A stretch of DNA of 64,000 nt from Kineosporia babensis. GTDB lineage: Bacteria > Actinomycetota > Actinomycetes > Actinomycetales > Kineosporiaceae. The position numbers were made by a program, and so were the translations under genes. Shown here piece after piece: positions 4,834-64,000 of this stretch (the stretch's first letter is position 1; every line of letters begins with the position of its first letter). The stretch is from positions 434,001 to 498,000 of the forward strand of contig NZ_JAJOMB010000002.1 in the NCBI RefSeq assembly GCF_021129305.1. Reading direction: 5' to 3'. The notes below the pieces were generated by a model. It did not search any database and was not told the origin of the DNA. It saw nothing but the letters and a program-made list of their open reading frames with translations.

Positions 4834-4938
4834 CACAGACCACCGGAGGCTGCCCGGGCAGTGCCTTCCGGGAAGGAGCCGGTGCCGCCGAGAGTCGGTG
4901 CACCGGTGCGCAGTACCCGACCAGGAGAGGAATTCCTG

Positions 4939-9933: not shown

Positions 9934-10005
9934 GTTCGATTGTGTACCGGTAGTTCTCGACAGAGTGGCTGGAAAGACCAGCCGGACCAGGAGCGATGAG
10001 AAGCC

Positions 10006-13068: not shown

Positions 13069-13102
13069 GCAGGCCCGATCCGTGGTGACAGGAGGATTTC
13101 CG

Positions 13103-13899: not shown

Positions 13900-13924
13900 C
13901 CGCAGGACGTAGGGCAAGCACGGG

Positions 13925-13952
13925 GAGAGCGGGCCTGACCAGGCCCGCTCTC
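13925..13952 (+). terminator. Strong hairpin separating the ESX block from the giant gene
   Basis: Perfect 13-bp inverted repeat: arms GAGAGCGGGCCTG (13925-13937) and CAGGCCCGCTCTC (13940-13952). The 2-nt spacer means the real loop opens a few pairs. It lies 25 bp after the preceding stop. No long T-run follows, which is common for high-GC terminators. It implies a separate promoter or read-through for the giant gene. Confidence 0.7.
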
Positions 13953-13986
13953 TTCGCATGTAGAGGGTTGACGACGTAACGGCTCC

Positions 13987-14001: not shown

Positions 14002-14960
14002 GTGAATATTTCGAGCGAGGGCGTCAAGAAGCTCCTCGAGGGCCTCACCGGCATTCCCTTCCCCTCGGTCAACGAGCTCAAGGTCTGGGCGGTCGCCGAC
14101 ACCCTGGACCGCACCGGTGACGCGCTGTTCCAGCTCGAGCCGCAGCTCGGCCAGGTGGTGCGCTCCCTCGAGGGAGACATGCACGGCCAGACCGGCCGGG
14201 CGCTGCGCGCGCGGGTCGCCCCGTTCAGCACGGCTGACCCGCACATCCTGAAGTCCTCCGGGCAGAGCCTGAAACAGAGTGCCGCCTACCTGAAGGACAT
14301 GGCCTCCGAGGTCGACTACCTCAAGCGCCTGATCCGCTGGATGATCATCTTCTTGATGATCCAGATCGCGATCGCCTTCGTCGAGATGCTCTACAACCCG
14401 CCGGCCGCGGCCGCCCGGATGGCGGCCGCCCAGGGCATCGCCCGGACCGCGGTGGTCAAGGGCGCGATGGGCGTGCTGCTGAAGATCGCCGGGGCCAGCT
14501 TCGCCTACGAGGTGGGCACCAACCTGCTGGCCCAGATCGAGCGGCTGGCCCTGGGAATCGCCCCGATCAACGAGAAGAAGCTGGCCGACTCGGCGATCGG
14601 CGCGGTCGGCAGCCTGGTGGCGATGGCCGGGATGATCCCGATCGCCAAGCGGCTGGGCGGGGTGATCAGCACCTACCTCAAGGGCACCGGGCTGAACTCG
14701 AGCCCGAACCTGATGGGCCTGACCGCCGGGGCGCTGACCGAGCTGCCGATCGGGATCACCACCGAGGTGGTCGCCGAAGTGGCGATGACCGGTATCACCA
14801 CCGGGGTCTGGGCGGCCCCGACCTGGGGTTCGGTGACCTCGGCGCTGGCCGAGACGGCGGGTGAGGCCGGGGGTGGCCTGGCCGCGATCGGCGCGCTCAC
14901 CGTGATGAACAAGAGCGAAGGGCTGAACAAGCCGGCCTGGATCAGCGCCATCACCGGTGG
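14002..14960 (+). other. N-terminal WXG100-like / T7SS-substrate domain of the giant protein
   Basis: Residues 1-320. Helical, with a W-A-V-A-D-T-L-D..GDALFQLEPQL helix, a M-H-G-Q-T-G-R-A-L turn in the WXG position and a following helix. A strongly hydrophobic segment (residues 110-131, IRWMIIFLMIQIAIAFVEML) is next, then amphipathic Ala/Gly helices. This order is typical of the N-terminal domain of actinobacterial polymorphic toxins delivered by type VII systems. Confidence 0.6.
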
Positions 14961-17900: not shown

Positions 17901-20900
17901 CGACGGGACCACCCCGTCCTCAAACACTTTCGCCCTGAGTTCGTTCTCCCAGGGTTTGACCGGTGCGCTGGCCGCCGCCGGGCTGAACCGGCCGGGGCGG
18001 AGGCGGGCCGACATTCAGCCGGTCGAGGGCCAGAACTTCGACCGCTGGTGGGACCAGCAGGTTTCCCAGGCCCAGCAGTTCCTGGAGAGCCAGCCGCTGG
18101 GGGAGAGTGGATCGTTCCGGGCGGATGCCGAGAGCATCGTCCGAGCGCTGCCCACCGACGGTGGCAGCAACCGGCTGGCTCAGGAAGTCGTGCCGGTGGT
18201 CACTTCGCTGCTGATGGCGAATGCTCCGGACCCGCTGAAGAACCCGGTCGGGTACAAGGAACTCGTGGTCGGCGTCCGGGCCGGCGGGCGGGACATCGTG
18301 CGCGGGCTGGGACTGCTCCAGGCCGGTCTGCCCGGTGGTAACCCGAACTACGCCGGCACGAGTTCCGCCCCCTCGCGCGGCGGCGTCTGGGTCGGGCCCC
18401 AGCAGATCACCCCGGACCAGCTCACCCCGCAGCAGGCCGCTGCCCTGAACGGTCTGCTGAACGACGGCCAGGTGCGGATTTTCGAGGACCGCGACGAGCT
18501 GGACGAGTTCCTCGCCGGGAACACCAGGCACCTGGGCAACCTGGCGGGCGAGCACAGCCCGGGTACCTGGGTCCGGTTCATGGCCGGCGAGACCAACGTG
18601 ATCGGTGAGCGGCACGACCAGGTGACCCTGCCGGACATCCTGCGGGCGGTCTCGCGCAGCGACAACCCTGCGGACTGGCCGCCTTTCACCTACGAGTCGA
18701 TCCCGGTGGACGATCTGTCCGGCAGCCCGGCGCTGCGGCAGATGGTCGGCGCGATGTACGCGCCGTTGGCCGCCGAGTTCGGGCTGAACTCGATCACCGA
18801 TTTCCCCGACCACGGCGGCGAGTCGCTGTACCCACGTCTGGCCGAGTCGCTGTCCGGCTGGGGTCCGCTGTTCGCAGCGGGCGACCTGACCGGCCTGACC
18901 GTCGGGCCCTGGGCCGGCCGGGCCTCGGAATCGATCCGGCTGGCCCTGGCCCACGGCATCGACCTGCGCAGTGGGCAGGGCATCGCCGGCGGTGTGCCGA
19001 CCCCGGCCGAACAGCGGGTTGGCCAGGTCGTGGCCGCCAGCGGTCTGTTGACGCAGTTCGCTTTCGGTCTGCCGCGGGGCGGCACGCTGGGGGCCGGGCT
19101 GACCGCGTTCCGCAACCAGCTGGGTGCCCGGTTCGACACCGAGTTCCGGCCTCAGATGAACGCTTTCGTCAGCTCCTACCTGGATCTGATGCACGAGCGG
19201 GCACTGAACGACCCGAGGCTCCCGGAGGACATGCGGGAGGATCTGGCCGGTCACACCGACCAGCAGATCCTGTTCCAGCACTGGCGTGACCTCTCGATGG
19301 CCGAGATCACCGGTGACGCGATCGGGCGGGGTGTGCCGTTCGTTGGGATGGGTCAGGACCACGCCCGATTCATCGACGAGGACTACGGTCACCTCGGCGC
19401 CTACGTGTACCAGATGGCCGGCGACGACCTGGCCCAGTTCGAGGCGGTCACCCAGGACCACCGCAACCAGCTGGGCCCGGCCGAGAACGCCGGCCCGTTC
19501 CCGGACTCCGGTTTCTGGACCGGGCACTTCGGCCCGGAACTGACCGGCGCGCTGCGGACCGCCGGGCTGGGCGACGGGCGCCTGCGCGATCCCTCCGGCC
19601 GCACCGACCAGGGCTTCCAATTCGACCACTGGTACCGGGACACCGAGCAGCGGGCGGCCGAGTTCCTGGCCTCCAGGCCGGATGCCGAGGTCACCCCGTT
19701 CCGGGTGCTGGCTACGCAGGTTGCCCGAACGATCCCGACCACCGCGCCGAACCAGGTTGCCGACCGGGTGCTTCCGGTCTTGACCGCGGTGATGATGGCG
19801 ACGCCGCCGTCGGCGGAGCTGGCCGGGCGGCTGAGCTGGCTGGGCAGCGAGATCGCGCGTGGGCTGGGGATCCGCTCGGGCGGGCTGCCCGGTGGCAACC
19901 TGAGTTATGCCACCGGTCCGCTGCCGACGGCCGACTCCTTGATGGTTCCGGAACCCTCGGTGGCCAGCAATCTTTCGGACAGTCCGGTGGTTGCCGGGCT
20001 CAGCGACGTGGCCACCCTGCTCGACGACAGCCCGGAGACGTTCGAGGCGGCTCGCCGGGACTGGTTGCGGGACCGATCGGAGCAGGCCAACCAGATCCTC
20101 GGCGACCTGCCGCCGGCCCAGCGCGGCGAACTGCTCGACACAGCGAACGCGGTGGTCGGCCGGGCCAGCGGGTACCACTCCGGTCTGCGCACCAGCAACG
20201 ACCCGGACGCCGGGCTGCTGCGCCAGCAGGTGGTGCCGATCGCGGCGGCGCTGCTGAGCGACGCCGGGCAGGTGGCCGACCGAGGGCTGGCCGGGCTGAC
20301 CGCAGACACGGTCCAGACCGCCGAGGCGACCATCAGCGACCTGGTGAACAGCCTGGATCTGCAGCGCACACGTCAGCGCGGCGGTCTCACCGGTGGTGAG
20401 GTCGAGAGCGGCGTGATGCTGGGCAAGCGGGTCGAGAAGGGCGACACCCGGCCCTGGACCGCGGAGAAGGTCGGCGAGCTGCCCGGCACCGGGGTCACGT
20501 TCAAGCTGGACAAACGGCCGTTCGCGGTCGGCATCGACGGGGTGGTGTACCCGTCGCGGGCCACCGCGGCCGCTTACACCAATGCCGAGCCGACCGAGAC
20601 CTACACCGGTTACATCATCGAGGCGGTCTACGGCCCGGCCGCCGGGGTCCGGCAGGAAGCCGGCCTGGCCCCGGACGTCTGGACCCAGCACGACAACACC
20701 AAGGCATCGCTGTCCTGGCTGAAGGAGGCCGGCCGGCAGGGGCTGACCCTGGAGCAGGCGCTGAAGCCAGCCGATCCGGAGCAGGTCTGGCGCTGGGCGG
20801 CGAACGAGCCGCCGTACCGGGCGGAGGCGACCGACGCGGTTGCCCAGGCCCTGGTCGACGGCACCGCCAAGGTCACCGACGGTTTCGGGACCGAGGCCCT

Positions 20901-23900
20901 GGAATACCCCGAGAACGCCTACCAGAACGACTTCTTCCCGCAGTTCAGCCAGGGCGTGCCGGGTGCCGGTATCAGCACCCTGCTGAACGACTTCGCGAAC
21001 AACGCCGAGGGCAACGAGACCGCGGCCCGGGCCCGGGACCTGGTCACACTGGGCAACCGGTTCGCCGACGAGATCGTCGACCACTTCGTCGACGCTGTGG
21101 CCGGGCGGCAGGTCAGCCCGCAGGAGCGAGCCTGGCTGGGCAGCTTCGCCGAGAGCCGGCACCTGCACGGCGTGATGGTCACCGCCTACACCCACGCCGT
21201 GGCCACGGTCGAGACCATGCGCCCGGACAACGGGGACCGGATCGGCAAGAACGCCGTGCTGGCGCTGAACCGGCACGACCTGATCGACACCGTCGAGGGC
21301 CTGCCGCCGCTGGTCCGGCAGTGGGTCGGGGCGAACGCGGGCCGGCTGACCGATGCGGTGGGCCGGTTCGCCTTCCAGCAGGACCCGGCCTTCGTCAAGG
21401 ACCTGCGCAATCACGGTGACGACTGGCTCAAGATCACCCAGCAGGACAAGGGCCGCAACTACAGCCCGCGCCGGCTGCTGGTCTCGGCGTTCACCGGCAA
21501 CCGCGACCGTTCGGTCGCCAACACGACCGCGTTCGGCCTGATGACCAGCGTGAAGATCGAGTCCACGGCCCCCGGGCAACCGCTGCTGTACGTGTACGAG
21601 TCGCGCTTCAACGACGCGATGATCTTCTCCAAGATCGGCGAGCGGCCGACCCCGATGCAGGGCATCGACGAGATCGACCATCCGCTGACCCGGGTGCAGC
21701 AGGCCGGGCAGCACGCCTTCGACGTCGCCGAGCAGGCGCAGGCCCTGAGCGACCGGCACGGCGGGATCCGGGCCGCGGCCCGAGGACTGCCCGAGAGCCC
21801 GTCCCGGGCCCTGCCCGAGGACCTGCTGCAGGCGATCACCGACGAACTGTCCCGGGTGAACCCGCGCGGCGAGCCGGTCTCCCGGGAGCGGGCGCTGGCC
21901 GCCTACGAGCAGTGGCGGACCCAGGGCCGGGAGCTCCCGGGCACCTCGGACGCGCTGGCCCACGAGGTCGCCCAGGCCACCCGGTTCGGGCTGGGTGACC
22001 CCGAGAGCCTGCGCACCTGGCTGCAGGACATCGGCCCGGACCTGACTCAGGCGCTGGAGGCAGCTGGGCTGGGCAACGGCCAGCTGCGTGACGCCCAGGG
22101 CAAGACCGCCAAGGGCTTCCGGTTCGACAACTGGTTCGCCGATGCCGAGCGCCGGGCGAGCGAGTACCGGGCGCAGCGGCGCGGCGACGTGGCCCAGTAC
22201 GAGCGGGCGGCCCAGCAGCTGGCCCACCGGATTCCGACCACCGCGCCCAACACGGTTGCCCGGCGGGTGGTCCCGGTGCTCACCGCGGTGATGATGGCCA
22301 CCCCGCCCTCGGCCGACCTGGCCCGGGACATGACCTGGCTGGGCACCGAGATCGTGCGCGGTCTGGGCATCCGCTCGGGTGGTCTGGCCGGTGGGAACCC
22401 GAACTTCGCATCGTCCTCCCAGGCGCCTGCTCAGGACAACCAGTCGAGCCAGGACAACGGCTCGGGTCTGGAACGCCCGGCCCCCGCGCAGCACCGGCGG
22501 CCAGACGCAATTCCCCCGCGAGCCGTGCAGCGCGAGCTCAGCGAGACCTTCGGGATCCGCAACGAACCGCTCAATCGCTGGCAGCAGGCCTACGCCGCGC
22601 CGTTCCAGCGGCTGCGCGAGCTCGGCGCCACCGACCGGGCCGGGGCCGAGCAGCTGGCCCTGCGGGTCGGTGCCCGGCGCGAGAACCTGCTCAACGACGC
22701 CATTCTGGCCGCCCACTTCTACCCCGACGGCTTCGGCCTGGCCCAGCTCGGCGGGATGGAGCGGCTGCGCAACCTGGTGCCCGACCTGCGTTCGTCGCAG
22801 CCACCGGCCCCTGGCTACCGCGGTCAGGTGGACCCGCGCCGGCTCACCGATCTGGCCGAGTACCTCAGCCCCGGCGGGGACCGGACGCCCGAGCAGAAGG
22901 TGCGCGAGCTGGCCCTGGTGGCCGGCACCCAGGCCCGGACCACCGTGGAGTCCCTGCTGCAGGGACTGGTGGCGCAGCCGGAACGTCTTTCGCTGCAGCG
23001 CTCCTTCGAGTTCTCCCAGCTGCCGCTGCGGGTGGCCGAGGCCGAGCGGGCCCTGGCCCTGCTGCCGGACGGGCCGACCGCCGACGGGACGAACCGCCAG
23101 GTCCGGCGCCAGCAGTTGCAGGATGCCCTGGACCACGCCCGGGAGCTGACCGAGGCTCCGGCCAGCCCGCGCGGGCTGCAGCGTTCCCGCGAGGCGATCA
23201 GCGCGGTCGAGATCGAGCTGTCCGCGCTGTACCGGGACGCCTACACCGCGGTTCAGCGGCGCGTCCAGCAGAACGCCGACCAGCTGTCCCGGCAGGTGCA
23301 GGAGGTCTACGGCCCGCCCGGCACGCAGCACCGCACCGCGCCCGGCCCGTTCACCCAGACCCAGCTGAGCAGCCACCGGGAGCAGCTGCACCAGGTCCAG
23401 CAGGACCTGAACGACCTCACCACCCGGCTGGCCCACCAGGACGGCCCGGACTCTGCGCTGCTGGACCGGCTGAGCGTGCTCGACGAGCGCCTCGACAAGC
23501 TGGCCGACGACTACGCCACCACGCACTATCCGCAAGCGGACTCCGCTTCCCAGGACACCGCGTCCACCATTGGCGGGCTACCCGAGCACCCCCGTGGGCC
23601 GGCCGAGAACGCCAACGACACCGTGCCCAGGCCGGACCGGCGGCTGCCGGGCCGGGTGATCATCGACTCGCGGGCCGGAAAACGCCTTCCCTGGGGCGAG
23701 TTCGGCCACGTGGTCGAGGTCGGCGACGCCACGATGCGCTCGTTCGACGCGATCGCCGACCGGGCCGTGAACCGGCTCGGGGCGGGGGTGCCGGCTGCGG
23801 TGGTGGCCGCGATCCGGTCTGAGGTCCCGAAGCTGGCGCTGATCAACCAGACTCCGGAACCGGCCCAGGTGCGGGCCAACCAGCCGCTGGAAGACGGCTA

Positions 23901-26900
23901 CCAGGACCAGGTCTCGTACTTCGCGCCGTCCCGGCGGCTGGCCGACCCGCGGGGCATCGACCTCGGCAACGGCTACCGGCTGCACCTCGACCTGGGAGCG
24001 CTGCACGAGCCAGGCAGTACCACGTACCACACCCCGCAGGAACGACAGCGGCTGCGGCTGGGGCAGCGCTCCACCCAGTCGATCGACATCAGCCAGTACC
24101 AGAACCCGGGCCTGTTCAAGGACGCCTACCAGGCCAAGTCCGGCAGCGTGAACATCGGGTTCGACTTCACCCTGCCGCAGACCGCCGGCTTCGGTTTCGG
24201 CGGGAAGGCCGGGGTGCGTGGCCAGAACCTGCTGGGCGAGTACGTCGGCGGGGTGCTGACCGCCGACCCGAACGCGGTGCACAACCAGTTCGCCTACTTC
24301 AGCACCACCGCCGACGGCGAGAACGGCAGCGGCTGGCGGCTGACCCGCACCGCGGCGGACGGCACCGTCCAGACCGTGGCCCGGGCGCCGGAGGAGGTGC
24401 TGCTGGCCTTCCCCGACCACGAGTCACCCGAGGTCGAGGCCGGCGCCGCGGACGGGGCAGACCCGAAGCCGGGTCCCGACCGGCTCGGCGAGCCGATCCG
24501 GCTCCCGGAGAACGCCAGTACCGCCCAGCGCGACGCCTTCCACGACGTCACCTGGCGGGTCTTCACCACGGACGAGTCGATCTCGGCGGACGACGCGGGC
24601 ACCGGCCGGGCCGGCGACCCGGTGCAGCAGCTGAACGACCGTTTCACCGCGGCCGGTGAGGACTTCCGGCGCGAGGTTGACAACCTCTTCGACGACAGCT
24701 CGCTGTTCCGGCACCGGATGGACATCTTCGGCTCCGGGTACCTGACCCCGACGATCCCGACCGATGCCGAGGGCGGCTGGGCTGGTCTGCGGCTGACCGG
24801 CCGGGTGACCTCGGTGCAGCCGGTCGACTCCAGCACCGTTCCGCTGCAGCAGGACACCCGGCACCTGTTCTGGGGTGGCGAGACCCGGAGCGTCAGCAGC
24901 GCGCTGACCGGAAGCGCCCGGATGGGTGGGCACTTCCCGAAGATCCTGCCGGAGCGGCAGCCGGTCTCGATCGGGCTGGCGCCCTCGGGCGGCGGCCAGG
25001 TGATGCGCACCCGGGAGGAGAACGCCTCGATCGGGGCCGGGGACTGGCGTTTCCGCAACTTCGAGGCCGCCACCCGGACCTACCGGATGGACGTCGACCT
25101 GGTCACCGACGTGCGCACCGACGCCGCGGGGGCCCGGGAACCGATAACCACCAAGGTCACTCGTTACATCCGGCTCAGCGAGCAGGAGGCCGCGCGGTTC
25201 GAGGCGGAGCTGAAGGCCGTGCGGGACAGCACCGACGACGCCGGGGTGCGTCCCGGATCGCGACTGCCGCACGACGCGGGCGAGACCCGCGACCGCCAGC
25301 CACCGGCGTCCATCCTTTCCGGCAAGAGCCGGGGCCCGGCCGTGGTCGACGTACTGGGCAGCTACCACCAGGTGGCCAAGGACGTCACCGGGATGATCAC
25401 CGACTCGGTGCGGGACCCGAAACTGCTCGGTTCCCAGGGGCTCTCCCGGCGGGACGCGCACAACCTCGAACGCTGGGCGATGCAGTACTTCTCGGCGAAG
25501 ACGGCGCTGCCCTTCACCACCCAGCTGATCAGCCACCGGCAGGCCGGGGAGTACTACCTGGACGCTCCGGGCGGACGGCTGCGGGTCGAGGTCACGGTGG
25601 CCTCCCGTCAGGGGAAGACCTGGGTCGGCAACAAGACCGGCGCCGGCTCGATGGACCACTACCCGATCGCCTACGCCGACCTGTCGAACACCGACCGGCT
25701 GACCGGGGACCTGAACGGGACCTGGTCGGGCAGCGTGGGCACGACGCCGACGCCGGTCAGCGACACCGCGAACCCGAACAGCGGGATGAGCGAGGCCCCG
25801 GGCAGCACCGGCGTGACCGCCCGCGACCGGCTGCAGAACGAGAGCACGGCGCGGTCCGGTTCCTGGATCGCGGAGGGCTACCTGCAGGCGGGCGAGTTCC
25901 GCTCGTTCACCTTCCCGACCGGTTTCGAGCTGAACACCAAGGTCACCTTCGAACCGCGGCTGGCCTCGCTGGGGGAGGCCTCGGCCCTGACCGCCAAGCC
26001 GGTCCGGGCCGCGGTCCAGGCGCTGACCGGGGAGTCCGGGACGAGCCCGGCGGACACCGCGCAGCGGGCCTGGTACTCGGTCTCCGAGCACAAGGAGATC
26101 CCGGGCATCATCCGGTACCACGTGCCGGAGAACATGGCCCCGCCGACCACGGCGGACGGGCAGGACACCCCGAACCCGGACCTCGGCCGGGTGATCGAGG
26201 TGATCACGCCGACCATGGTGGACCGGGACGCCCCGGCCGTGCTGCCGCCCTTCGACCCGGCCGCGCTGACCGACGGCCCGGTGCCCGGCCGGCTCCGGCT
26301 GAAGCCGGACGACCTGGTGGTGGACCTGCTCGGGGTGCCCGAGATCGTGGCCGCCACCGAGCAGCTGCTGCGGGCCGGCGGCATCCCGGACGCGGACTTC
26401 GGCGCGATGCTGTCGACCTGGCTGAACCAGGACCAGCTGGCCTCCCGGCTGATCTTCAACCGCGACGTGGTCTCGGTGACCCGCTACCTGGCGCCGGGGG
26501 CGGTGAGCAACCGGCACGGCCGGGTGGTGATCACCGGCCGCCCGTACTCCGAGCAGAAGGAGGCCGGGCACGGGACGTTCCGCAAGAGCACGATGGTCGA
26601 CTCCGAGCCGGCCCTGCTCAGCCGCGACCGGGACCGGCACACCGAGACGGTCGCGGCCGGCGCGGACCAGCTGGGCACCGCGGACGGCGGGGTGGCCCTG
26701 GGTGGGTCGCGGACCGCGAAGGACAACGAGCTCAGCCGGATCGAGGCGAACGAGGCGGTCGGCGGCAACTGGCGGGACGGGGCCCGCAAGGAGCACACCC
26801 CGGTGCGCTCGGCCATGGTCTGGGACATCCAGGTCGAGACCTGGGACGCCGACCCGCTCACCGAACGCGGGGCGCAGCACGGCGGGGCCCGGCTGGCGGT

Positions 26901-29900
26901 GCTCGGTGGGCTCTCGGTGCACCGGCCGGAGACCGGGCTGCCGCAGGAGCGGCCGGCCGAGATCCCGGCCGCGATCCAGCCTTCCGAGATGCCGCTGCTG
27001 TCCAGCACCCTGATGCAGGACCCGTCCTCGGCGCTGCCGGGCACTCACAACACCGTGCTGGAAAGTGCCCGCCGCGCACTGCTGAAGGTCGATCCGGGTC
27101 TGCTCGACGTCGAGTGGCACACCGGGAACCAGCCGGGCACCGGGACGATCCGGCGCACCGGGGTACCCGCCTCGCTGAGCACCATGCTGGACGACGCCGC
27201 GCTGCTCGGGCACCGCGACACGATCGCCGGGCCGGGCCTGTTCCTGCACCAGAGCCGGGGTGTGGCCGGTGGGGTCTCGGACGTCACGCTGCAGATCCGG
27301 GCCGAGGCCCTGCGCCCGGAGGAGATCGACCCGGCCTGGGTCGAGGCCGGGCTGATCGGCGAGGACGGCAGCTACCTCTACGACCGGACCGAGGACGCCG
27401 ACCACTACCTGTACAAGCTCAACACCCAGCGGGACGCGGTCCGCGACACCCGGTTCGTCACCAGTTCCGCCTCGGTCACCGGCACCTACAGCGGCTTCGA
27501 CCCGCTGAAAGGCACTACCGGCGGTAGCCTTTCCGGTGGCCTGAGTACCAACCCGTACCACGCCGACGTGCGCCACCGTGGCCGGATCCTGCGGATCCGG
27601 GACGTGGTGCACTTCGGCGGGCCGGTGCACAGCTACACCGGCATGTACAAGATCTCGGTCACCGCGCTGCGCAACTTCGACCCCTCGCGCCCGGCGCAGG
27701 TGCTGCCGGGCCTGGGCTCGCGGTCCTCGACCTCGCCCACCGAGTCCTCGTACGTGCCCGAGACGGTCTCGATCTCCGACCAGGTGCTGCGCGCCCCGGG
27801 CCACCTGCCGGGCCGTTCCGCGGTGGCGGTGGCCAGCACCGACGCCGGCGGCGCGCGGCTCGACGTCGACCAGATCCTGCAGCGTGAGGGTCTGACCGAG
27901 CTGCCGGTCTCGCGCTCGGAGGCGCGCGACCGGGCGGTGATCGCGGCCGGGGTGAGCAAGCCCGCCCTGCGCGAGCTGCACGACAGCACAGTGCGCAACC
28001 TGGACTCCGGCTCCGGCACGGTACGCGACCTGATGACCCGCACCGGCGTGCCCCGGGAGGCGTACGCGGGGCTGACCGGTTCGGCCCAGACCCTGGCGGC
28101 CTTCCACCTGACTCTGGACGACGGGCACGTGTTCCCGCCGCTGAACCGGGGGAACGGGGTGGTCACCGACGCGCGCGGCACGTTGGAGACCACGCACCGT
28201 TTCTACAACCCGGTGCCGCAGGAGTGGATGACCGCGGCGTCGCTGGCCGAGACCGTCGGGATGCGCGAGCAGGCCGACATCAAGCTGTTCGGCGACAACG
28301 GTGCGGGCAACCTGAGCGGCACGGTGAGCACCATTGCGGGCGGAAACCCGCTGGCTTCGTTCACCTTCGGCGCCGGGGCCGGGGGCGACTACGGCAAAGA
28401 CGCGATCATGACCGTCAACGAGCGCATCCCGGTGGCGAACTCGCACCGCCGCACCGCGCCGTTCATGCGGGTCAACGCCGGTCTGCTGGCCCAGCAGCGG
28501 TTCGGGGCGATGCAGCAGAACCGGTTCGTCGCCTACTCCGGGGACGGCTCGGTCCAGACCTTCCGCCTCGACGGGGCGATGGAACTGCTGGTCGACAGCG
28601 AGGCGGTGATCGCCAAGCGGCTGCTGCACCGGGAGCTCGGCAACCCCACGGCGCACGGCCGCTACCTGCCGCTGCTGACCGACCAGGGGCCCGACCCGGC
28701 CTCGGCGGACGAGGCCGAGCGGCAGCAGTACCAGGCCGAGCAGGACCGGCTGCGGGCCGCCTACGGCCTGCCCAGCTACGGCGACTGGTACCCGCTGGAC
28801 GGCTCGTTCCAGCCCTCCTCGAACGGGGGCCCGGGGCAGGTCCGGATGACCTCGTTCCGCAACGGCGCCGTGGTGCAGGAGAGCCTGAGCGCGGACCAGC
28901 TGGCCGACCGGGTGAACCGGATGGCCGACCGTTCCAGCGCCGGCCCGGACGGCCGGCCGCGGCCGATCATCCTGATGATGGGCGGGGTCACCCCGGAGTT
29001 CGCCCAGCGCCTGGCCGAGGCCACCGGCAGCGACGTGCTGGCCACCTCCGACTCCTGGCGGCAGAGCCGGGACGAGATCCGGGCGGTCCGGCGCGGGGCC
29101 ACGGACACCGACGGCCAGCTGGTGCTGTATGCCAAGGAGCCCGGCCGCCGCCCGCAGTTCCTGGACGCGCCGGACCTGGAGACCGCGCTGACCCGGGAGG
29201 TTCCGTACTTCCTGCAGGGGGCCCGCCGGGAGGACCCGGTCGGCCTGATGGCGGTGCGCGAGCCGCTGTACCGCAACCCGCTGCCGGCCCAGGCCCAGCC
29301 GGACAACTCCGATGCGTTCACCATCGGTTCGGCCTCTGATTCCGAGAGCGGCTCGATCCGGGCCGGGCGGGCGAACCCGTCGCAGAGCGGCCCGCTGCAG
29401 ACCATCAACGAGAACGACGCCACCCCGCAGGCCTTCGCCTACGACCCGCCGGCCGATCCGCGGGCCACCCCGGCCAACCAGCGCGACCAGCACAGCGTGG
29501 ACGACACCACGGTCACCGCGTCCGAGAGCGCCCCGGTGCCGGCGGACGTCCTGCGGGGCTGGAAATCCCTGGCCCGCAGCCAGCGCGACCAGGCCGAGAA
29601 CCAGCTGTGGCTGGCCCGGATCGAGGGTGGCGACAGCCAGATCACCGCGGCCGAGAACCGGCTGAAACTGCGTAACGCCAACTACCTCTCGGCGCTGAGC
29701 GAGGGCATTGCCAACGCCCGCCGGGGCCAGGGGTCGGAGTCGGTCGGCCCGGCCCTGGCCTACAGCCAGCTGCTCAGCGACTTCCTGGACCTGCGGGCGG
29801 CGGCCCTGCAGTCGATCATCGCGAACACCGCGCCCGGGCAGCGGGCCGACGTCTACCTCGGCAGCGGCTACACCCCGGCCGAGTTCACCAGCCTGCAGGA

Positions 29901-50900: not shown

Positions 50901-53900
50901 GCTGGCCGACTCGCTGGCCGCGAACCCGATCGTGCCGTCCGGGAGCCGGGACGCCGGCCTGGACCGGATCACCCCGGTCCGCTCGGGCACCGGCTCGACC
51001 ACCGACAGCGGCGACGGTGGCACGTCCGGCCTGTCCCGCCGTCCCGCCCTGCGGATCGCGCCGTCCGACGGGCCGCCGGCGCCGACGCTTTCGGTGGTGC
51101 CGTACTTCCCCCGGGCTGCCGGTCAGCTGAACACCACCGATGTGCAGAACATCGCTGCCATGGTGGCTCGGATCCGTTCCCTGGCAACTGCTTTCGATCT
51201 GAACATGGAGGACTCGCAGATCGGCCGGATCACCGAGCCGATGGTGCACGAGTTCGACAGCTTCTTCGGTGACGGCCGGACGATCACCATCGAGGCCCGG
51301 GCCCACCGGCCCAACCTGTTCGGCCGCCGCTCCCGCAGCCAGGTCGACGTCGGGATCCAGCTGCGGCAGGTGCGGCAGGACAGCGCGCTCAGCCAGCCGA
51401 ACACCCAGCACCGGCAGGAGATGTACCCGCGGCGCTCGGCCACCGGCACCAAGTCACGGGTGCGGGGTAAGGGCGGCAGTGTGCCGCTGGCGATCACCCT
51501 GCTCTCGCCGGTGGGTGTGGGTGGCTCGCTGGAACTGTCGGCCGGCTGGCTCAGCCAGGTGGTGCACCGGCGCGACATCGTGGTGGCCGACCAGCGCTCG
51601 CTGCGCAGCAACGGCGGCTCGGAGTTCCCGATCCGCTTCGAGTACGTGATCACTCTGACGCCGACGAAGCTCAAGGCAGGGCAGACGCCGCAGTCCGGTA
51701 ACGTGCCCGGCGCGGCGAAGATGCTGGCCCCGAAGGACCTGCTGGACATCCAGTGGACGCCCGAGGCGGAACGGATCACCCGCGAGGTCACCCAGCAGCA
51801 GAACGACGCCATCGTCACCGCGCCGTCGCTGGCGATCGACGCGGTGGTGGACCTGACCGAGTTCGTCACCGACCCGGACGATGCGGACGGGGACAACCCG
51901 ATCGGCGTGGATCTGCTGACCAGCCGGCGCAACGCGCTGCCGTCGGCGATCACCGCGCCCAGCGCCCCGGGCCGGGAGAACAGCGAACGGATCTCGCACG
52001 GCACGGCGCTGCAGCGTGACCTGATCGGCATGCTGGAGGGCCGTTTCGACTCGACCACGCTGCGCGGGGCCAAGAAGAAGGACTGGACCGCGCTGAACAC
52101 CAGCGCCACGATCACCCACCTGATGCCGCTGGGCGTGGGCAGCTCGGCCAACCAGCGTTCGGCCCGGGTCACCGGCCAGAACGTGGTGCTCAGCCAGGGC
52201 CAGGCGGTCGACCTGAGCGGGGCCGTGGGCCCGGCCGTGGGTGTCCCGGTCACCGACCTGGTGTCCTGGCTGGCCTGGCGGCTGATGGCCAGCGGCGGCT
52301 ACAGCTGGCGCAACACCTCCGACGTGGTGCACTCCACCCAGGACAAGGAGGGCTACCAGATCAACCACCCGCGGGCCCTCTACCTGGCCAGCGTGAACCT
52401 TTCCGACCTGAGCTACCGGCCGGAGACCTCGACCTGGCAGGAGCTGAACCCGGGCGGCCACGAGATCCACGTGGTGCTGAGCCTTTCCAAGTTCGAGGCG
52501 GCCGGGTTCGGCCTGCCGGGGGTGGACGGCGTCAAGCCGATGCTGACCCGCTACGACCCGGCCTCCGGGCAACCGGCCCGCACGTTGCCGGCCTGGTTCG
52601 AGGACGGGCAGGCGCCGGTGGGTACCGGCGTGAACCTGATTCCGCCGCGCGACCTTCCGGGCGAACTTGAGGACGCGGTGCGCGGGTTGGTCAGGGAGGC
52701 GGGCTTCGGGGACTCACTGACTCAGGGACAGGGCGGCCCGCCGACCAACTCCAACCGCACGGCGGTGGAGCGGTACTACAAGGACCTGGAGATCCGCGAG
52801 AAGGTCACGCTGAGCTCGCTGGTGACCATGCGGCCGCGGACGATCGAGTTCGAGCGCGGTTCGCTGGGCTGGAACGACGTGCTGACCGTGACGATCACGC
52901 CGTTCCGGGGCGAGCCGACCTACCAGGGGCACTGGGACAGCGCGCTGGTCCGCTCGATCAACCTGCACACCACCAGCACCTCGTCGGACCAGGCGCGCAG
53001 CCGCCGGGCCGGCTGGCTGACCGATCTGCGGGCCCGTTTCGCCGGCGCGAACGTGGGCCCGGGCGCGGCTTTCCGGATGCAGTGGGAGAAGACCCGCGCG
53101 ACGTCGGCCGGCACGGTGCAGCGCGGGCACGCGCTGTGGATCGGTGACCCGACCACCGACGTGTTCAGCACCGACCTGCACTACGTGATCGAGGCGCAGG
53201 TGGAGCGGCGCTTCCGGCCGTTGGCGGCGCGGCGGCTGGCCGGTCCGGACGCGGCGGCCGACGCGGCCCGGGAGCAGCTGATCCAGGAGGCGGCCGGCGG
53301 CACGACCCGGCGGCAGCAGCGGCTGGCCAGCAGCAGCCCGGCCGACGTCACCACCACCGAACCAACGACGACCGAACCGATGACGACGGAACCGGCGACG
53401 ACGGAACCGGCGACGACGGAACCGGTTACGTCGAGCGAGGCGACGACGGAAGGAATCGCGCCGGCTGGGACCACCACGACGGGTGGGACCACGACGGGCG
53501 ACGGCACGATCAGCCAGGCCACGCAGGACCAGATCACACCGGTTCCGGAAACGACCACCGCGGCGACGACCACCGCGGCGACGACCACCGCGACCGACCG
53601 GACCGCGACCGACCCGGCCACTACCGCCCTGACCACGACCGAGACGCTCACCCCGGGAGACGAAGGCTCGGACGCCGGGGACTCGACCTCCGGGCAGGCG
53701 ATCGTTGCCGACTCCCCGCGTCGTCAGGTCCGGCTGATCCGGCCGACCGTGGTCAGCCGGATCGGCACGATCACCGTGCCCCGGGCCCTGACCCGCACCG
53801 CGGGCTCGCGCGACTGGCCGATGATCGGCCCGTTCCGCTACGACCGCACCGACGTCCCGGCCGGCCGCCAGATCCACCCCCGCCCGGCGATGCTCGACCA

Positions 53901-56900
53901 CCGCGGTACCCCCGGTACCGGGCACGCGGCCGACCGTCGCACGGTGATCTTCGTGAGCCGCGTGGACCAGGTCCTCGACGCGATGAACGACCTGGCCACC
54001 CGGGTCTCGGACGCCGAGTTCGTGCACACCTACCAGAACGAGATCGAGGGCACCTTCGGCCCGGAGGCGCTGGACAGCTCGTTCAGCACCCAGGTCGTCT
54101 ACCGCCGCTACCGCAACGTCGAGATGGCGGCCCGGTCCAGCCTGGACAACTCCCAGGTGCTGCAGGTGCTGCCGCTGGGCATGTTCAGCGAGATGGCCCA
54201 GCTCGGCGGCCAGAGCGCGGGTTCCGGCACCGTGCGCTCGCGGATGTGGGACTTCGTGCTCGGCCCGAGCGGCCGGAGCACGGCCTTCGGCCACTACTTC
54301 CAGGCCTCGCTGAACGGCCGGTTCGGGCAGAGCCGGAACAACGCCGAGAACCTGAACTTCAGCGCCGACCGCGATCTGAACACCGTGCAGGGCCCGACCC
54401 ACATCCTGTTCGTGGTCAGCAGCAACCTGGCCTGGCAGCTGGCCGCCGCGCACGAGATGTCGCGCTCGCCGCTGGCCAACCGGGTCCGCACCCGCCGCGA
54501 GGTGGGCGAGATCTCGGTGCCCAACGGCGCGATCGAGCTGCTCACCGAGCGCCAGGCCCGCCGGGTGACCACCGACCCGGCCACCGGCGAGAAGCTGCTG
54601 GACGGCCTGGACCGGCTGATGGCCCGCAACCGCGCCTGGGGCAACTCGCCCAAGGCCCGGACCTGGCTGCAGGAGCACGGTTACGACCCGGGCAGCGTTC
54701 CGGTGCTGCCGGACCTGCCGGCCGACGCGATCATGACCCTGGAGCCCCCGCCGTACCTGCAGGGTGGGCCGAAGGCCTCGCTGGGCGCCGGTTTCCCGGC
54801 CGAGGTGCCGAACCTGACCTATCTGCTGGACCGGCTGATCACCCGGATGGGCCCGTACGCGGACATGATCTTCCCGCCCGGCGGCCGGGACAAGAAGGAC
54901 AACCGGGGTCTGGCCACGCTGCTGCTCGGCGAGGACGGCGTGGCGGGCTTCCTGAACGGGATGATGGACGGCGGGGCGGTGATCCCGTTGAAGTCGTACG
55001 GCCACAGCGCGGTGAGCAACCGGCTGCAGCGGCCCACTCCGCAGGCGATGGCCACCGCCCACCGTCTGGCCCACGCCGCCGCCCAGGACGGCGACGGGAA
55101 CCCGGGCGGGGACGGAACCGGGGCCGAGACCAGCCGGTCGGCTCAGCGCCGGGCCCAGCGGATGCAGGCCCACACCGACGCGGCCCGCCGCGCCGGGAAG
55201 AACAAGACCGCGATCTTCAGGGTCGAGGTCGAGACCGCGCGGGCGCAGTTCGACGAGGTCATCGCCGACGGCGGCGACCTGGAACTGTACAGCGACGCCA
55301 CGGTCACCCGCAGCCAGCGGCTGGCCCGGATCAACCGGGTGCTGGCCTCGCTCACCGCCGGCTACGGCTACCTCGGCGAGCCCGGGCAGCCGGTGCGGGC
55401 CGCGGTCGGCGCGAACCCGGGGGTCAGCTACCAGGCGGCGTCCGAGAACAGCGCCTCCGGCAGTGAGACCAGCCGGGCTATGAAGATGAACTGGATCGTC
55501 GGGCACCGGGTGGCGTTCCGGGTCCCGATCACCCGGGTCCGGCTCTCGGTGGAACTGCCGAACGGCGCCACTTTCGAGGTCGACGACCGCCCGGCCACCG
55601 TGCCCGGCCCGGACGGCACCCCGCAGATCGCCGAGGACTCGCCGCTGCAGCCGATGCTGGTCGAGGTGGCGGCCAGCACGCTGCGCGCCACCAAGCCCGC
55701 CGACGCCCCGGCCGACGAGCCCGGCCCGGCGCCGATCACCGGTGCGGGCGGCCCGATCTTCCGGTTGGCCCCAGGCGCGTCCTCCCGCTCCGGGCAGGCC
55801 GCCGACCCGGCCGACCAGGGGGTGACCAGCCGGACCGGTAGCTGGAGCCCGGCCACGGTGGAGCAGTACGTCCAGAACTTCCTCGGCGCCCGGCAGCACC
55901 AGATGCCTTCCCAGGCCTACGTCGAGTGGTTCCTCGGCACCCCCGAACTGCGCGAGCTGATGAACGCGGCCAAGGGGCCGAACCGGAACTTCAGCATGGA
56001 CGACCGGACCCGGCTGCAGCTGATCAGCAGCCCGGAGTCGGTGCACGGCTGGCTCCCGCTGGCCGAGACGGAGAAGGGGTTCCAGGCTCCGCGCCGCGGG
56101 CTGACCGTCTACGCCCGGCTGCGCAACGCCGTCACGGTGGCCACCGGCAGCGACTTCCGGATGGGCTTCGAGGACCCGCAGGGTCTGTACCTGCCGTCGG
56201 TGCCGCGCTCGATCACCGCCCCCACCCGCTACCTGACCAACGAGGCCAGCGCCAACATCGGGATGGGCCCGGGTGTGGTGCAGTCGGACAGCCGGGGCGA
56301 GAGCGGCGGTGGCCCCCGGGTGGTGCGCGGCGTCGGTGACCGCGACGCGTTCAGCGACACCTCGGTCCTGAACCGGATGGTCCGCCGGGGTGGGCCCTCG
56401 GTCCTGGTCCGGTACGACGTCGACTTCCTGACCGTGTACCAGGGCCGGCACGCCACCCGGCTGACCGTGCGTACCATCGAGGGCGGCGTCGGCCTGCGGA
56501 TGAACGCCGACATCGCCCGGGACAAGCTCGACTTCACGATGGACGCCCGGACCCGCCAGCCGGACGACCAGCTGAAGGAGCTGGACAAGACCGGCACGCT
56601 GCGCCAGCAGGCCCGGCACACCATGCTGACCCGGGCCCTGGAGCTGCAGCAGCTGACCGACGACCACCGGGTGGAGGAACTCGACGAGGCCGGGCAGCCG
56701 ATCCCGGACCCGGACTTCGAGGCCGCCCGCAACCAGGCCCAGCTGGACCTGCTGCTCGCCCAGGACGCCTACGACCAGGCCGATCACGCGTTCCGCACGG
56801 CGATCATGAACTGGCTCGGGGCCAAGCGGGTGGCCGACCGGGCACTCGACTCCACCCTGGGCGACCAGCGCTTCTCGCATGCCGGCCCGCGCCCGCCGGC

Positions 56901-59900
56901 CCCGCCGCCCCCGCCCGCCGCACCGGTGGCCGAGACGTCCAGCCAGCGCCGGCCGTCTACCATTCGCAGCACTTCGCAGTCCAGCCTGGAGTCCCAGGCC
57001 CGCTCGGGCCGTCGGTCGCGGCCGGAGTTGCCGGTGATCCGCGAGGACCAGCTGTTCGGGAGGATGGAGACCCTGTTCGACGAGCCGGAGCTGCTCGACG
57101 ACCAGGCCGCGTCCGGGCCCTCGGGCGGCCCGAGCCGGGAGCCGTCCCCGGTTCCCGCCCTCGGCCTGAGCCGGGATCTCGACCCGCTGCCCCCGGTGGA
57201 ACCGGACTGGACGGTCCGCTCGAGCGCGGCGGGCCTGATCCTGGACCGGGCCGGGCAGGAGGGCATCCGGGTTCCGGCTGCCCCGCAGCCGGGCTGGACC
57301 ACGATCGAGGCCGGCTCCGACGCGATCACCGGCGCCGACCCGCAGGTGCTGGGCGAGGTCCGGCGGATGCTCGCGGACGAGGGCCGTGACATCGAGCGCT
57401 ACCTGCTGCGGATCCCGGGGGTCACGATCACCGACGCCCGGCAGCTGGCCGACGACCTGGGCATCGAGCTCGCGGTCGAGGACGCCGGGTCCGGGGTGAT
57501 CACCAGGCTGACCCCGGACGGCCCGGGAACTGTTCTGGTGCAGCCGTTCACGCCGTCCGACCGGCTTCCGGGCTGGCCCGAGCAGACTCCGCAGATCCTG
57601 GGCGAGGCGGTCCGGGACACGCTGAGCGAGATGGGCGAGCGGCCGGACCCGGAGCTGGTCCAGGCGATCCAGGAGCAGCTGGACCCGCACCACCTGAACC
57701 AGCAGCCGGTCCTGGCCCTGCACGTGCCGTCGCTGGAGCACCCCGGACAGGAGATCCGGATCGAGGTCGGCCCGACCGCGGCCCGCGACGGTTTCACCGT
57801 GACCGGCGGCCGCTACCTGCAGGGCGAGCAGATCGCCACCGGCTCGGCCCCGGCCCTGCTGCTGGAGACCAGCCGGACCGTCGAGATCGACTTCGCCCGG
57901 AGCAAGGGCAAGGCCCCGGCCCGCGAGGCCGGTACCGCCGAGGCCGCGCCGGTGGAGGTCGAGCAGGTGCGGGTGGAACTCGACCCGCAGGAGGGCCGGC
58001 AGCGCACCGGGATCCTGGACTCCGACGCGCAGCGGATCACCGCCGACGTACCAGGCTCCGGCCCGGTGTACCTGCTGCGCAGCCCCGACCTTCCGGGCCT
58101 GGTGCTCGCCTCGGACCGTCCGGAACTGCTGCCGGCCAGCAACGACATCCCGCACGAGGTGGACGGCCCGCCGACCTTCTCGGTGAGCCAGATCGCCGAC
58201 CCGGCCCTGGCCCGGGCCGCGCTCAGCCAGGTCGCCGACCTGATCGGCCCGGGTCCGGTCCGGCTGCACGACGACCGGGTGGCGGCGAGCAGCCTGCCGT
58301 TGCCCGAAGGCAGCCGCCAGCAGCGGATGCCGATGGCCGGCGACACGCACTGGCAGCCCGGCTGGAATGCCGAGATCGAGCGTCTGCAGGAGCTTTCGAA
58401 GCAGGGCGAGAGCACCGGCGGCGCGGTGCGCAGTTACGACGTCGGCTTCCGGGAGTACAGCGAACCGGCCTACCCGCGGACCGCCGTCACACCGGTCACC
58501 CGGGTGAACCTGCGGGCGCTGATCGAGGAGTCCGGGGCGCTGACTCCGCAGCAGACTCAGGCTCTGGTCGCGGCGGTCGACGCGGTGCGCCCGCTGCAGC
58601 AGCGCTTCGCCCCGGCCGTGGCCCGGCCCGGGTCGGCCGATCCGCGCGAGTATCTGCGTACTGTCCTGGACCTCTCCAGCGATCAGGGCGGTCCGGGGCG
58701 GGAGCAGATCCAGCAGCTCGTGGCCTCCGCACAGGTGCGCGGACAGCTCGACCGGGGTACCGACCGTCCGTCGATCCAGTTCCGGGCCACCGAGTTCGAC
58801 GTCTCCCCGGACACCACCGTGATGCAGGTGGAGCAGGTGGTCCGGCTGGTGCCGGAGCGGGGTGAGGACGGCCGGCCGACGGTTTCCCCGGAAGAGCTGG
58901 AGATCCTGGCCCAGCGGGTGTACGAGGAGACGAACCGGATCTTCAACCACACCGGCCGGTTCGAGCTGGACGGTCGCTGGCGCTACCTGCGCAACCGCAC
59001 CCAGGTGGTGATCGACACCGATACGCCGGCCGACCGGGTGGTCACGGTTCGGGCGGGCGACGGCACGGCCGACACCCCGGGCGACGGAACTCAGGTCTAC
59101 ACCGGCAGTTCCGCGGCGACGCTGGTCCGGGAGATCGGGGCGTACCCGTTCAACCTCTCCGACCGCTATCCGGCGGTGGGGGACGGCACGGCCACCTTCA
59201 GCCCGCTGCGGCAGCCCGCGCTGCGGACCATCGACCCGGGTGCGGGATCCGCGGCTTCGCGAGTGCGCTACCGCCTCCCGGTGACCCTGGACCAGTACGA
59301 GACCCGAAGCGTCACCACTTTGACCGGCCGGACCGGCGACGACGTGCGGCCCACCCAGCGTGACCTGACCCGGATCTACCGGACCGTCCAGACCCGGCGC
59401 CCGGCTTCCGCTCCGGCCTCCGGCGCTCAGCCGCGCAAACCCGTTCCGGTGGACCTGAACCCGGTGGCCGAACGGCTGCGCGAGCAGCTGGGCAGCGAAC
59501 TGCGCAAGTTCGGCCACCAGATCCCGGAGACCGGCCGGCCCGCTCAGCTGATGAATGCGGTGACCGGTCCGCGTGGGCTCAGCAACCTGCCGGCCAACGG
59601 CGAGGCGGTGTCGGTCTGGCTGGGCCCGGACACCGAGATCGACCGCAGCCGGGGTACCGGCGGCATGCTGCTCGACTTCCGGCTGATCACCTCGCCGAGC
59701 GGCACTCCGATGGCGGTCGGGGTGAACATCGAACGACTGGCCGAGCGCACCGCGAGCAGCTCCGGGGTGCGCGCGCACACCGGTTTCGTGGTGCAGATTC
59801 CCGCCTGGAACACGCTGTTCGCGCACCTCGGGCTGGACGCCACCGGCCGTCCGTTGGTGGTCGAGACGCCCGCCGTGACGCCGGAGGTGAAGCCCGAGCC

Positions 59901-62900
59901 GGAGAAGGCCACCGTCGTGGCGCCCGAGGTCAAGATGGAGCGGGTCCCGGACTTCGAACGGGCACTGGACCGGCTGCTGGACGGCCTGGGCACGGCCGCG
60001 GTGGTGCGGGGTTACGCCGGCAACCGGACCGCGGAAACCACGGCCCAGCGCCAGGATCCGCTCAACCTCGCCGCTGATCCGCGGGTGCGCGAGCTGTTCT
60101 CGGCCCGGACCGCGCAGGAGCTGGCGGCCGGTCCGCAGGCCTCGCGTTCGCTGACCCTCTGGTACAACCGGGCCAAGGGTGTTCTGGACAGCCCGCCGGA
60201 GGAGATGTCGGCCGACCAGGTTCGGCTGGAGCTCACCTGGCAGGCGCCTCAGGGCCCGGGCGGCGGGCAGCTGACCGGAAGCTGGGAGCGGATTCAGCGG
60301 GTCGGGCTGGCCGCTCCGGGGGGCGACCGGTCGTTGTGGTCGCTCACGGAGAGCGTGCACCAGATCATGCAGCCGGTTCAGGCTGAGACCAGCACGAACA
60401 CCGCCGCTACGAACACCGCCGCCACGGACGCGGACGGTGCGGTGACCACGGACACCGGCGACGCGGTGACGACGGACGCCGACGGCGCGGTGATCACGGG
60501 TACTGATGGCGCTGTCACCACCGGCACCGAAGGCGCCGTCACTACCGACGCCGACGGTGCAATTACCAGGGGTTCCGACGGCGTTGTTACCAGGGACGCT
60601 GGTGGTCCCGTTACTTCGGATGCCGAAGGTTCCGGGACCACTGAGACCGGGCGTGCCGCAACGGTGTACACCGGCCCGATCCCGGACAACCTGCGGGCGG
60701 TCGACGAAGCGCAGCCGGTTGACGAAGCGCAGCCGACGGACGACGCGCAACCGGTGGAGGGGGCCCTGGCCGACCCGCCGCGGGCCGATGTCTGGCGCTG
60801 GAGCGAGGCCGACGGCGCCGAGGCGGACAACCGTTCGCACGTGCTGCGCGGCCAGCTGGAACAGGCCGGGATCACGCTGCCGGACGGTGCCGTGCTGCGC
60901 TCGCTCCAGAACGAGGCGGACGGGTCCCAAACGGTTCTGGTCTCCGAGGTCCCGGCCCCGACCGCCCAGCGGATCGCCGCGGCACTGAACCTGACCGAGG
61001 TGCTGTACACCCCCGAGCGCGTGCTCGAGATCCCGTCGAACCCGAACGGCGTGGGCTACCAGCCGCGGACCGCCGACGGCAGCGGCGCCGCGCGCTGGCG
61101 GGTGCTCACCATCCAGGAAGACGGTGGCCCCAGCGACGTCTCGACCGGGCTGACCACGATCCCGACCCTGGCCTGGGAACAGGCCGTGTCCGGTCGTCAG
61201 CTGCCCGCGGTGGTCGAGCTCAGCTACCGGACGCAGCAGGTCGGCCGGATCCGCACGGCGCCGGTCTCCCAGATGCTCAGCGGTGACGGGATCGTCTTCT
61301 CCAGCCGTCCCCTCGGCCGGCCGGCCACGGTGCTGCCGATGGAGCAGATGGTGGTGCACACCGAACTTCTGGCCAACGCCGAGCTGGCCGAGGCCGCTGT
61401 CGCGCACGTCGTCGCCATGCTCCCGGACCTGGGCGGGGTGACGCTGCGGCTGACCGACGAGCGGGTGCTTGGGATGCTCACCGGGCGCCGCCTCACCGGA
61501 GCCAACACCCCGGCCGTGGACCAGGCCGTGCGGACCCTGCGCCGTCGGCCGACGATGATCTCGCACGGCTCGGACGTCACCCGCCCGGACGGCGTGCGCT
61601 CGTTCCGGAGCTGGGACGTCTACCAGAACAGCCGGCTGGACAGCACGTCCCAGTCTCGCGAGGACCGAGACTGGGCAACGGCTTTCGCCGCCACGCCGCT
61701 GCCCACGGTCGACGGCTTCCAGATCCGCGCCACGCCGAACGGTGCGGTGCTGACCGAGAACACCCCTGGGGAGAGCCGGACCACGCCCGACCTGCCGGCG
61801 ACCGACACCTTCACGGCCGGACCGACCGTGGTGGTGCACAGCCGGGACCTGATCCGGGCGCTGCCGGCCCTGCTGCGGGTTCTGGACAGCCGGCCCGAGG
61901 GCAGCCTGCCCCAGCTGCGGGTGGTGCAGGTGGTGAAGAACAGCCGGGGTCATGGGCGTGTGGTGGCGGATGCCCTGGCCCAGCGGCTGGGCACGGATGT
62001 CACGACGGTCTCGGCCAAGGTCCGCAACAACACCCTGACCCTGCGCGACGACGTGCGCATCGCCACCGGTGGGATCTCCACAGCCTTGCCGGCGGATTCG
62101 GCGACCCTGCTGCAGGACGCCTGGAACCCGGCGCCCGACGTGCCGGCCGGTCTCGATCCGGCCCGGCAGACCGAGCGGACAGTGCTCGCGCAGGGCGACC
62201 GGACCGGCCGGGACCCGATTCCCGACCTCCGCGACGCCGGCGATCTGCCGCAGTGGCTGGTCGATCTCGCTCACCTGGCGGTGCGCCCGGCGGCCCAGCG
62301 GCCCGACCCGGCCCCGCAGGTCGAGCGTCTGCTGCGGGCCGAAGTGATCGATCAGCAGACGGCCGATCTGGTCACCGCGATGTTCGGGCCGGTACCGGGC
62401 TCGGGCGCAGCGGTGAACCGGGCGGTCGAACTGGGCGACCCGGTCGACGTGATGCGCCAGCTGGCCGGGCACCGGCGTGAGCCGGAGTCGCTGAGCAACC
62501 TGGCCGCCGAGTTCAGCACCGGCGACCTCGGCGGCTGGACTCTGCAGCAGCGGGTACGCAGCACCTTCGAGGGACACCCGGCCGCCTCGGCGGTGGAGTT
62601 CCTGCTCGGTGGGATGGACGATCTGGCCACCTCGATCTCGGTCGGCCAGTCCCGCTTCCTGTACGAGCGGATGGCCCGGACCGCCGTCTCCTTCGACCTG
62701 AACCCCACACCGGGGCAGCAGGAGTACCGGCTGATGCGGCACCAGACCGAGCTGGCGCGCTACGGCGTGGCCGCCCGGGTGGCCGAGCTGACCGGCGAGA
62801 TGACCCTGGACAACCCCTGGGGCCCGGCCGGCCTGACCCGCCAGGAGACCACCCGGCACGCCGCGACCCTGGTCCGGGTGCACTTCGACGGCGGCGACCA

Positions 62901-64000: not shown

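Follow-up and report, generated by a model that had tools for sequence, protein, structure and literature searches.

The window (the whole stretch of DNA analysed, 64,000 nucleotides of Kineosporia babensis; C12:434001-498000 of a 9.40-Mb genome in 89 contigs) is occupied from position 14002 onwards by one intact, conserved, modular and cysteine-free gene, which is embedded in a type VII secretion (ESX) locus and carries three complete metzincin-like motifs. We consider it probable that the product of this one gene, a single protein of 23,988 residues, is a modular, protease-bearing effector exported by the ESX machine.

The giant gene and its coding signal

An earlier note on this DNA had read a single open frame from GTG 14002, and the frame is indeed stop-free for 16,666 codons to 63,999 at the window edge. 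By extension rightward in the same contig, a TGA was found at window-equivalent 85,966-85,968, giving a total of 23,988 codons without any N; the next ATG lies at window-equivalent 85,970, one base past the TGA. The upstream context was also as described: the stop-to-stop frame opens at 13,972, and a Shine-Dalgarno-like run, GGAAGGGGG, precedes the GTG. In an N-terminal alignment, this GTG was aligned with the starts of most homologues. The predicted protein has a mass of 2,579 kDa (2.58 MDa) and a pI of 5.1. As the note had stated, the length is extreme and a few bacterial proteins are longer; a frame of 39,678 aa is recorded for Omnitrophota in the passages of PMC10066038 considered here.

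At 72% GC, spurious long frames are common, and the five remaining frames of the window stay open for as many as 3,761 codons at a stretch, which speaks for a long frame that arises from GC bias, annotation or assembly and encodes no functional protein. We regard such an artefact as highly improbable, and it is effectively ruled out by the codon-position, homology, repeat and cysteine-codon evidence. The GC contents of the three codon positions are 0.72, 0.52 and 0.92 in the window part of the frame, and GC3 is 0.82-0.96 in 24/24 blocks of 3 kb over the entire gene. The repeats and modules are in frame, in-frame homology extends over 87% of the length, the neighbouring genes are conserved, and a related frame of 13,402 codons stands in a single-contig genome. 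Cysteine codons are missing from this forward frame alone (TGC plus TGT: 0, versus 1,337 and 217 in two other forward frames). Exact repeats within the gene reach 44 nt at most, and every 51-mer is unique, so collapse of repeats during short-read assembly is unlikely and the assembly of the repeats is credible. Collectively, the codon-position GC, the in-frame homology and the repeats and modules bear out the note's judgement that the frame is real coding sequence. Its statement that the protein is neither a polyketide synthase nor an NRPS also held: a Pfam scan at E up to 0.1, run on pieces that jointly cover the 23,988 aa (two of which share only 33 aa, near aa 16,650), returned no KS, AT, A, C or PCP domain. 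A tRNA-Arg predicted by ARAGORN antisense in the giant gene (41961-42057) had no Rfam match and is probably false.

The ESX locus and its conserved neighbours

The features of the window up to the giant gene are as follows.

2..1006, minus strand: 5' part of an EccC-type FtsK/SpoIIIE ATPase gene (frame of 1,383 codons; FtsK matches just left of the window)
1192..2586, plus strand: EccD (PF19053, E 7e-66)
2591..3949, plus strand: EccB (PF05108, E 9e-74)
3987-4808, plus strand: small WXG100-like ORF (WXG100 24.0 bits, below the cut-off of 27.3)
about 4927-5250, plus strand: small WXG100 ORF (WXG100 33.8 bits, cut-off 27.3)
5300-5587, plus strand: 95-aa ORF, by frame alone
6157..13068, plus strand: pair of paralogous repeat proteins (LGDLSxxQLGALQ type), one of 1,258 aa without Cys and one of 1,020 aa with 1 Cys
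12974..13546, plus strand: ORF of a YbaB-like gene, whose true start is probably later
ending at 13899, plus strand: 118-aa ORF, overlapping the end of the YbaB-like gene (GTGA)
13918..13961, plus strand: strong hairpin (-33.2 kcal/mol, z -5.2, no T run)
14002..64000, plus strand: giant gene, running on to the TGA at window-equivalent 85,968 (23,988 codons)

The giant is thus encoded together with EccB, EccC, EccD and WXG100 partners. The two small WXG100-type ORFs share 53% identity over 99 aa, and an ORF of 132 aa also lies left of the giant on the same strand. No Pfam match was obtained for the 1,258-aa and 1,020-aa paralogues; relatives of these repeat proteins adjoin the giants in G004 and G002a. 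The hairpin, between the 118-aa ORF and the giant start, is terminator- or attenuator-like. A second EccD is present in the source genome at C12:52583.

To the right of the giant, two paralogues of 367 aa and 471 aa are encoded about 3.5 kb apart (L010:2170-3273, 6761-8176), with no Pfam match at E 0.01. Relatives of this pair are found beside the G004 and G005 giants, and both are candidates for immunity or chaperone functions; no immunity gene was recognised beside the giant. The same side encodes a 1,495-aa protein, coiled-coil-like by eye, and a protein with a right-handed beta-helix followed by two AAA domains (L010:12588-16046), which we take to be EccA-like. This AAA gene is kept after the giants in G004, G005 and G002a.

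In the genus, EccD was located 6-11.4 kb upstream on the same strand for 5/6 contig-internal frames of >5,000 aa, a count that leaves out two G005 frames beginning at contig edges; the sixth frame, of 5,032 aa in G002, has no EccD so near. Compared with the neighbours of the G004 giant, the YbaB-like gene is 71%, the 471-aa gene 69% and the AAA gene 76% identical, and of the coiled-coil-like 1,495-aa gene, with which the search covered the two ends, the end is matched at 76% over 282 aa and the start at 54% over 100 aa. The neighbours are conserved while the body of the G004 giant is mostly different, that is, fixed flanking genes surround a swappable cargo.

N-terminal domain, modular body and metzincin-like modules

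The following features were assigned within the giant gene.

14056..14445 (aa 19-148), plus strand: WXG100_2 domain (PF25547; E 1.4e-9, 38.5 bits, cut-off 27)
17926..22497, plus strand: four matches of module D1 (aa 1309, 1836, 1988, 2672)
23002..29001, plus strand: block aa 3001-5000, common to G005a (43-65%), G000y (38-51%) and, weakly, G002b (24-32%)
31699..32541, plus strand: metzincin-like module 1, HERGHHLGQPD at aa 6064 (32191-32223)
35719..36426, plus strand: metzincin-like module 2, HEVGHVLGLGD at aa 7394 (36181-36213)
37999..38751, plus strand: metzincin-like module 3, HERGHNFGLAD at aa 8171 (38512-38544)
41167-41508, plus strand: fifth match of module D1 (aa 9056)
49102..56901, plus strand: block aa 11701-14300, colinear with G003a 6697-9065 (36-61% identity)
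57181..64000, plus strand: opening unit of a tandem series of three, each of about 2,300 aa (aa 14394-21400)
58645-59367, plus strand: degenerate metzincin-like copy of the first tandem unit (REIGAY)
62239..63021, plus strand: glutaminase-like segment (PF18626, below cut-off) without any cysteine

The giant begins with a WXG100-type N-terminal helical domain, as do ESX substrates. The conserved N-terminus is about 336 residues long and includes a hydrophobic segment (aa 107-133), and a profile of nine N-termini matched WXG-type structures in the PDB weakly (best 4lws, E 5e-4; EsxA 2vs0, E 0.005). From this domain and the location of the gene, export of the giant by ESX seems likely: the adjacent machine would most likely be built for this cargo, and the WXG100-like N-terminus would pass it to the EccB/C/D apparatus. 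WXG100_2 was the only Pfam match above cut-off in the giant; no toxin domain was recognised anywhere, the C-terminus included, and Pfam likewise showed none of the types ART, caspase, MCF1-SHE or OTU. The block aa 3400-4600, searched against the PDB, gave nothing at E 0.1. Active glutaminase modules were considered and rejected, given that the three PF18626-like segments score below cut-off and have no Cys, and their PDB matches are at chance level (E 0.09 and above).

When the first 366 aa were used as query, 5/58 genomes matched, all of one genus (the source genome and 4/5 others), and these four other genomes hold giants of 11,287-17,664 aa. The frames are of 13,394 aa in G004 (a one-contig genome of 8.07 Mb), of 17,449, 16,920 and 5,032 aa in G002, of 17,664 and 6,131 aa in G005 (both starting at contig edges) and of 11,287 aa in G003; the source genome itself has three paralogues of 2,824-2,955 aa. 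G001 has an EccD, and in it neither a match to the giant's N-terminus nor such a frame was found. Two further scans of genome contigs, one with the N-terminus and one with block A1, gave no relative, nor did a tblastn search of plasmids, and the source assembly yielded no 16S gene. In the class, WXG100_2 matches 98/296 genomes, 78 of them above cut-off, and among the matches listed, open frames with this domain reach 19,630 codons outside the genus. In the 19,630-codon frame, in G174, of which about 9,000 residues were scanned, Scabin-like and EndoU nuclease domains score above their Pfam cut-offs; this frame has only 2 Cys.

The giant's body is built as a mosaic of modules. By chunked BLASTP at E 1e-4, 47.5% of its residues match other species of the genus, 52.8% match elsewhere in the giant and 86.9% match at least one sequence, other fetched frames included. 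Module D1 was matched 39 times in 8/11 genus frames, a few of the matches covering only the second half of the D1 model; 14 of the matches are regularly spaced in G004a, whose body consists of 14 repeats, each of about 710 aa (identity of 86-93% for the three pairs compared; no cysteine). Blocks matching aa 5100-8500 of the giant occur in G005a and G002a, and the large blocks are colinear within giants and shuffled in order between them. Beyond the window, the 2,300-aa tandem units are followed by about three further units of 850 aa, and the repeats make up the last 9,600 aa. Recent duplicates are under purifying selection: dN/dS is 0.34 in the rep2/rep3 core, where the giant's repeats are youngest, and 0.14-0.17 for three pairs of G004a units. 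The values of 0.53-0.99 in eleven older comparisons say little, because GC3 is near saturation and leaves little room for synonymous change. We infer that both tandem duplication and the swapping of large blocks with relatives enlarged the body, which may best be pictured as a string of swappable modules.

The metzincin-like module comprises about 230 aa. In 9/9 aligned modules the residues H, E, G, H, G and D do not vary, nor does a Leu-Met pair further on, which may be the Met-turn of metzincins. The complete zinc motif HExxHxxGxx(H/D) is present in 3/6 longer copies (8 matches in all, including two short ones), and the three motifs compare with 0.005 expected in the giant. The second tandem unit reads HEIGAH at this site, the copies in the tandem units having lost ligands. 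As in snapalysin (peptidase family M7) and the M6 peptidases, an HExGHxxGLxD motif and a downstream Met are found; the giant's module differs in lying within a giant chain and below all family cut-offs. Its best PDB sequence match was snapalysin, E 0.0025 over 20 motif residues, and among curated families, Pfam M6/M7 and NCBIfam M6/snapalysin matched weakly, all below cut-off, as did Reprolysin_5 at module 3 (E 0.06). The three modules with the complete zinc signature are thus putative proteases, which would probably cut proteins outside the producing cell, the other copies being degenerate.

The distribution of the motif was determined in 37 WXG100_2-type frames (11 of the genus, 6 giants and 20 others chosen for length and spread). 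It occurs 22 times in 11/37 frames, all of at least 3,000 aa, compared with a mean of 0.12 and a maximum of 1 in 100 rounds of shuffling. A metzincin profile, A5 (13 rows, several from the same genomes searched), matches 21/394 genomes; of the 26 distinct open frames matched, 21 reach 2,000 codons or more and 8 reach 8,000 or more. These giants include G158 (20,955 codons; weak match, E 1.6e-6), whose start is WXG-like by eye, and G230 (16,885 codons). In G256, another metzincin-like match falls in a frame of its own (2,169 codons), and the 12,978-codon frame of this genome ends in an out-of-frame-looking stretch after a run of N.

Two other fates of an exported chain were weighed against a protease-bearing effector. 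Complete protease motifs lie inside a chain whose module order is repeated, and built-in releasing peptidases are described for polymorphic toxins in the passages of PMC3482391 considered here; the giant could accordingly be a secreted polyprotein that its own metzincin-like modules cut into several smaller effectors. We think this rather unlikely, as G004a and G002b have no complete motif and yet reach 13,394 and 16,920 aa. Alternatively, the exported chain might remain attached to the cell surface as a filament or adhesin, a long fibre in which the enzyme-like modules are mostly structural relics. The tandem repeats that form the last 9,600 aa, the degenerate metzincin copies in them, the lack of a recognised C-terminal toxin domain and the interpretation of the Omnitrophota giants as coats or adhesins in the part of PMC10066038 that concerns them are in line with such a fibre. 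Pfam recognised no anchor domain, only one hydrophobic stretch (aa 9677-9696) lies outside the N-terminus, and three metzincin motifs are complete, which makes us judge the fibre unlikely. For the exported effector, antagonism of neighbouring cells is the most likely role, and surface display is possible.

Cysteine exclusion and comparison with known giants

The giant contains 0 Cys, compared with about 150 expected. The baseline was a Cys content of 0.625% in 45,946 residues, measured on 118 genes (crudely called) in 12 stretches of 20 kb, all of the source genome; genes without Cys numbered 24/118 overall, but only 2/20 of those of at least 500 aa. The ten other genus frames have 6 Cys in 96,530 aa. 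Among the 37 frames, Cys density is lower the longer the frame (Spearman -0.65, p 1e-5): before trimming, 65 Cys were counted in 236,622 aa of the 25 frames of at least 3,000 aa, versus 59 in 25,145 aa of the 12 shorter ones. Six further frames, chosen by the metzincin profile, have 43 Cys in 60,617 aa (trimmed, 36 in 60,227); some of them share a genus with earlier frames, and G249 was partly read. G230 has 0 Cys in its 16,885 codons. The main exception is G158, which holds 24 Cys, some in NCxxC papain-fold-like sites, and the exclusion is therefore not absolute. Pooled and trimmed, the giants have 82 Cys in 296,313 aa, and 14/31 have none. Trimming removed 12 Cys beyond aa 12,650 of G256, where the sequence looks out of frame; from G241, 3 that precede its likely start and 4 in an unusual tail; and 6 in G427 and 1 in G382, from the upstream open part.

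Some of the remaining cysteines in the family look catalytic. Their contexts include DACWTG, GDGNCLF in G345 and NCVDC in G158, presumably caspase-like, OTU-like and papain-fold catalytic sites, respectively, and 4/5 Cys in the part of G249 that was read lie within D-A/L-C-W/F-T-G. Catalytic-like patterns cover 12/46 Cys of the first 25 long frames, versus 2.5% of their Ser/Ala, the three patterns having been written after the contexts were seen. Taken individually, the strand-Cys pattern fails (1/46, p 0.11) and the two others pass (4/46, 7/46). A rule that residual cysteines are catalytic was rejected on these grounds, the patterns being post hoc and one of the three not significant alone.

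The loss of cysteine may reflect the length of the chain. During slow synthesis, unfolded passage or exposure to an oxidising exterior, a thiol on so long a chain would be a liability, and Cys would be excluded. More broadly, and as a tentative possibility, a class of actinomycete ESX machines may export single chains of up to 2.6 MDa by a route that imposes a thiol filter; Cys would be gone nearly everywhere except at catalytic centres, and in the longest member even there, such that any modules of Cys-type enzymes in it would be dead and only metal-dependent ones would stay active, in a swappable body behind a fixed export head and operon. In a literature search over titles and the starts of abstracts, no description of cysteine-free giant type VII proteins was found among the matches listed.

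Giant actinobacterial proteins with several toxin domains are already known, the longest in the set covered by the passages of Zhang et al. 2012 (PMC3482391) considered here being SACTE_5178, of 13,652 aa. Like those giants, the present protein exceeds 10,000 aa and repeats peptidase-like domains in one chain. It is 1.76 times as long as the longest of them, has none of the ART, caspase, MCF1-SHE or OTU domains by Pfam, and carries metzincin-like modules in place of anthrax-lethal-factor-like ones; measured against the presence of several toxin or peptidase domains, it offers three complete metzincin-like motifs, with every profile score sub-threshold. The absence of cysteine and the ESX locus set it apart further, the same passages being silent on both. 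It shares a WXG100-like N-terminus and a variable body beside secretion genes with the WXG/LXG polymorphic toxins of type VII secretion, and differs from them in having no recognised C-terminal toxin or immunity gene; it is also far longer than the polymorphic-toxin length peaks of 400-3,400 aa given in the cited part of PMC3482391. The giant ORFs of Omnitrophota and Chlorobium resemble it as single very long frames; in the passages of PMC10066038 on these proteins, the 39,678-aa one has 42 predicted transmembrane helices. Relative to the known actinobacterial giants, the size, the locus and the cysteine exclusion are new here; longer frames are on record in Omnitrophota.

If exported, a chain of 24,000 residues would test both what a type VII machine can move and the state in which such a cargo travels. 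The metzincin-like module, most of whose matches here lie in long frames, may represent a new peptidase family. The near-total loss of cysteine is a quantitative signature that makes hypotheses on export, oxidation and folding directly testable, and it might offer an inexpensive way to spot such giants in genomes that lack annotation.
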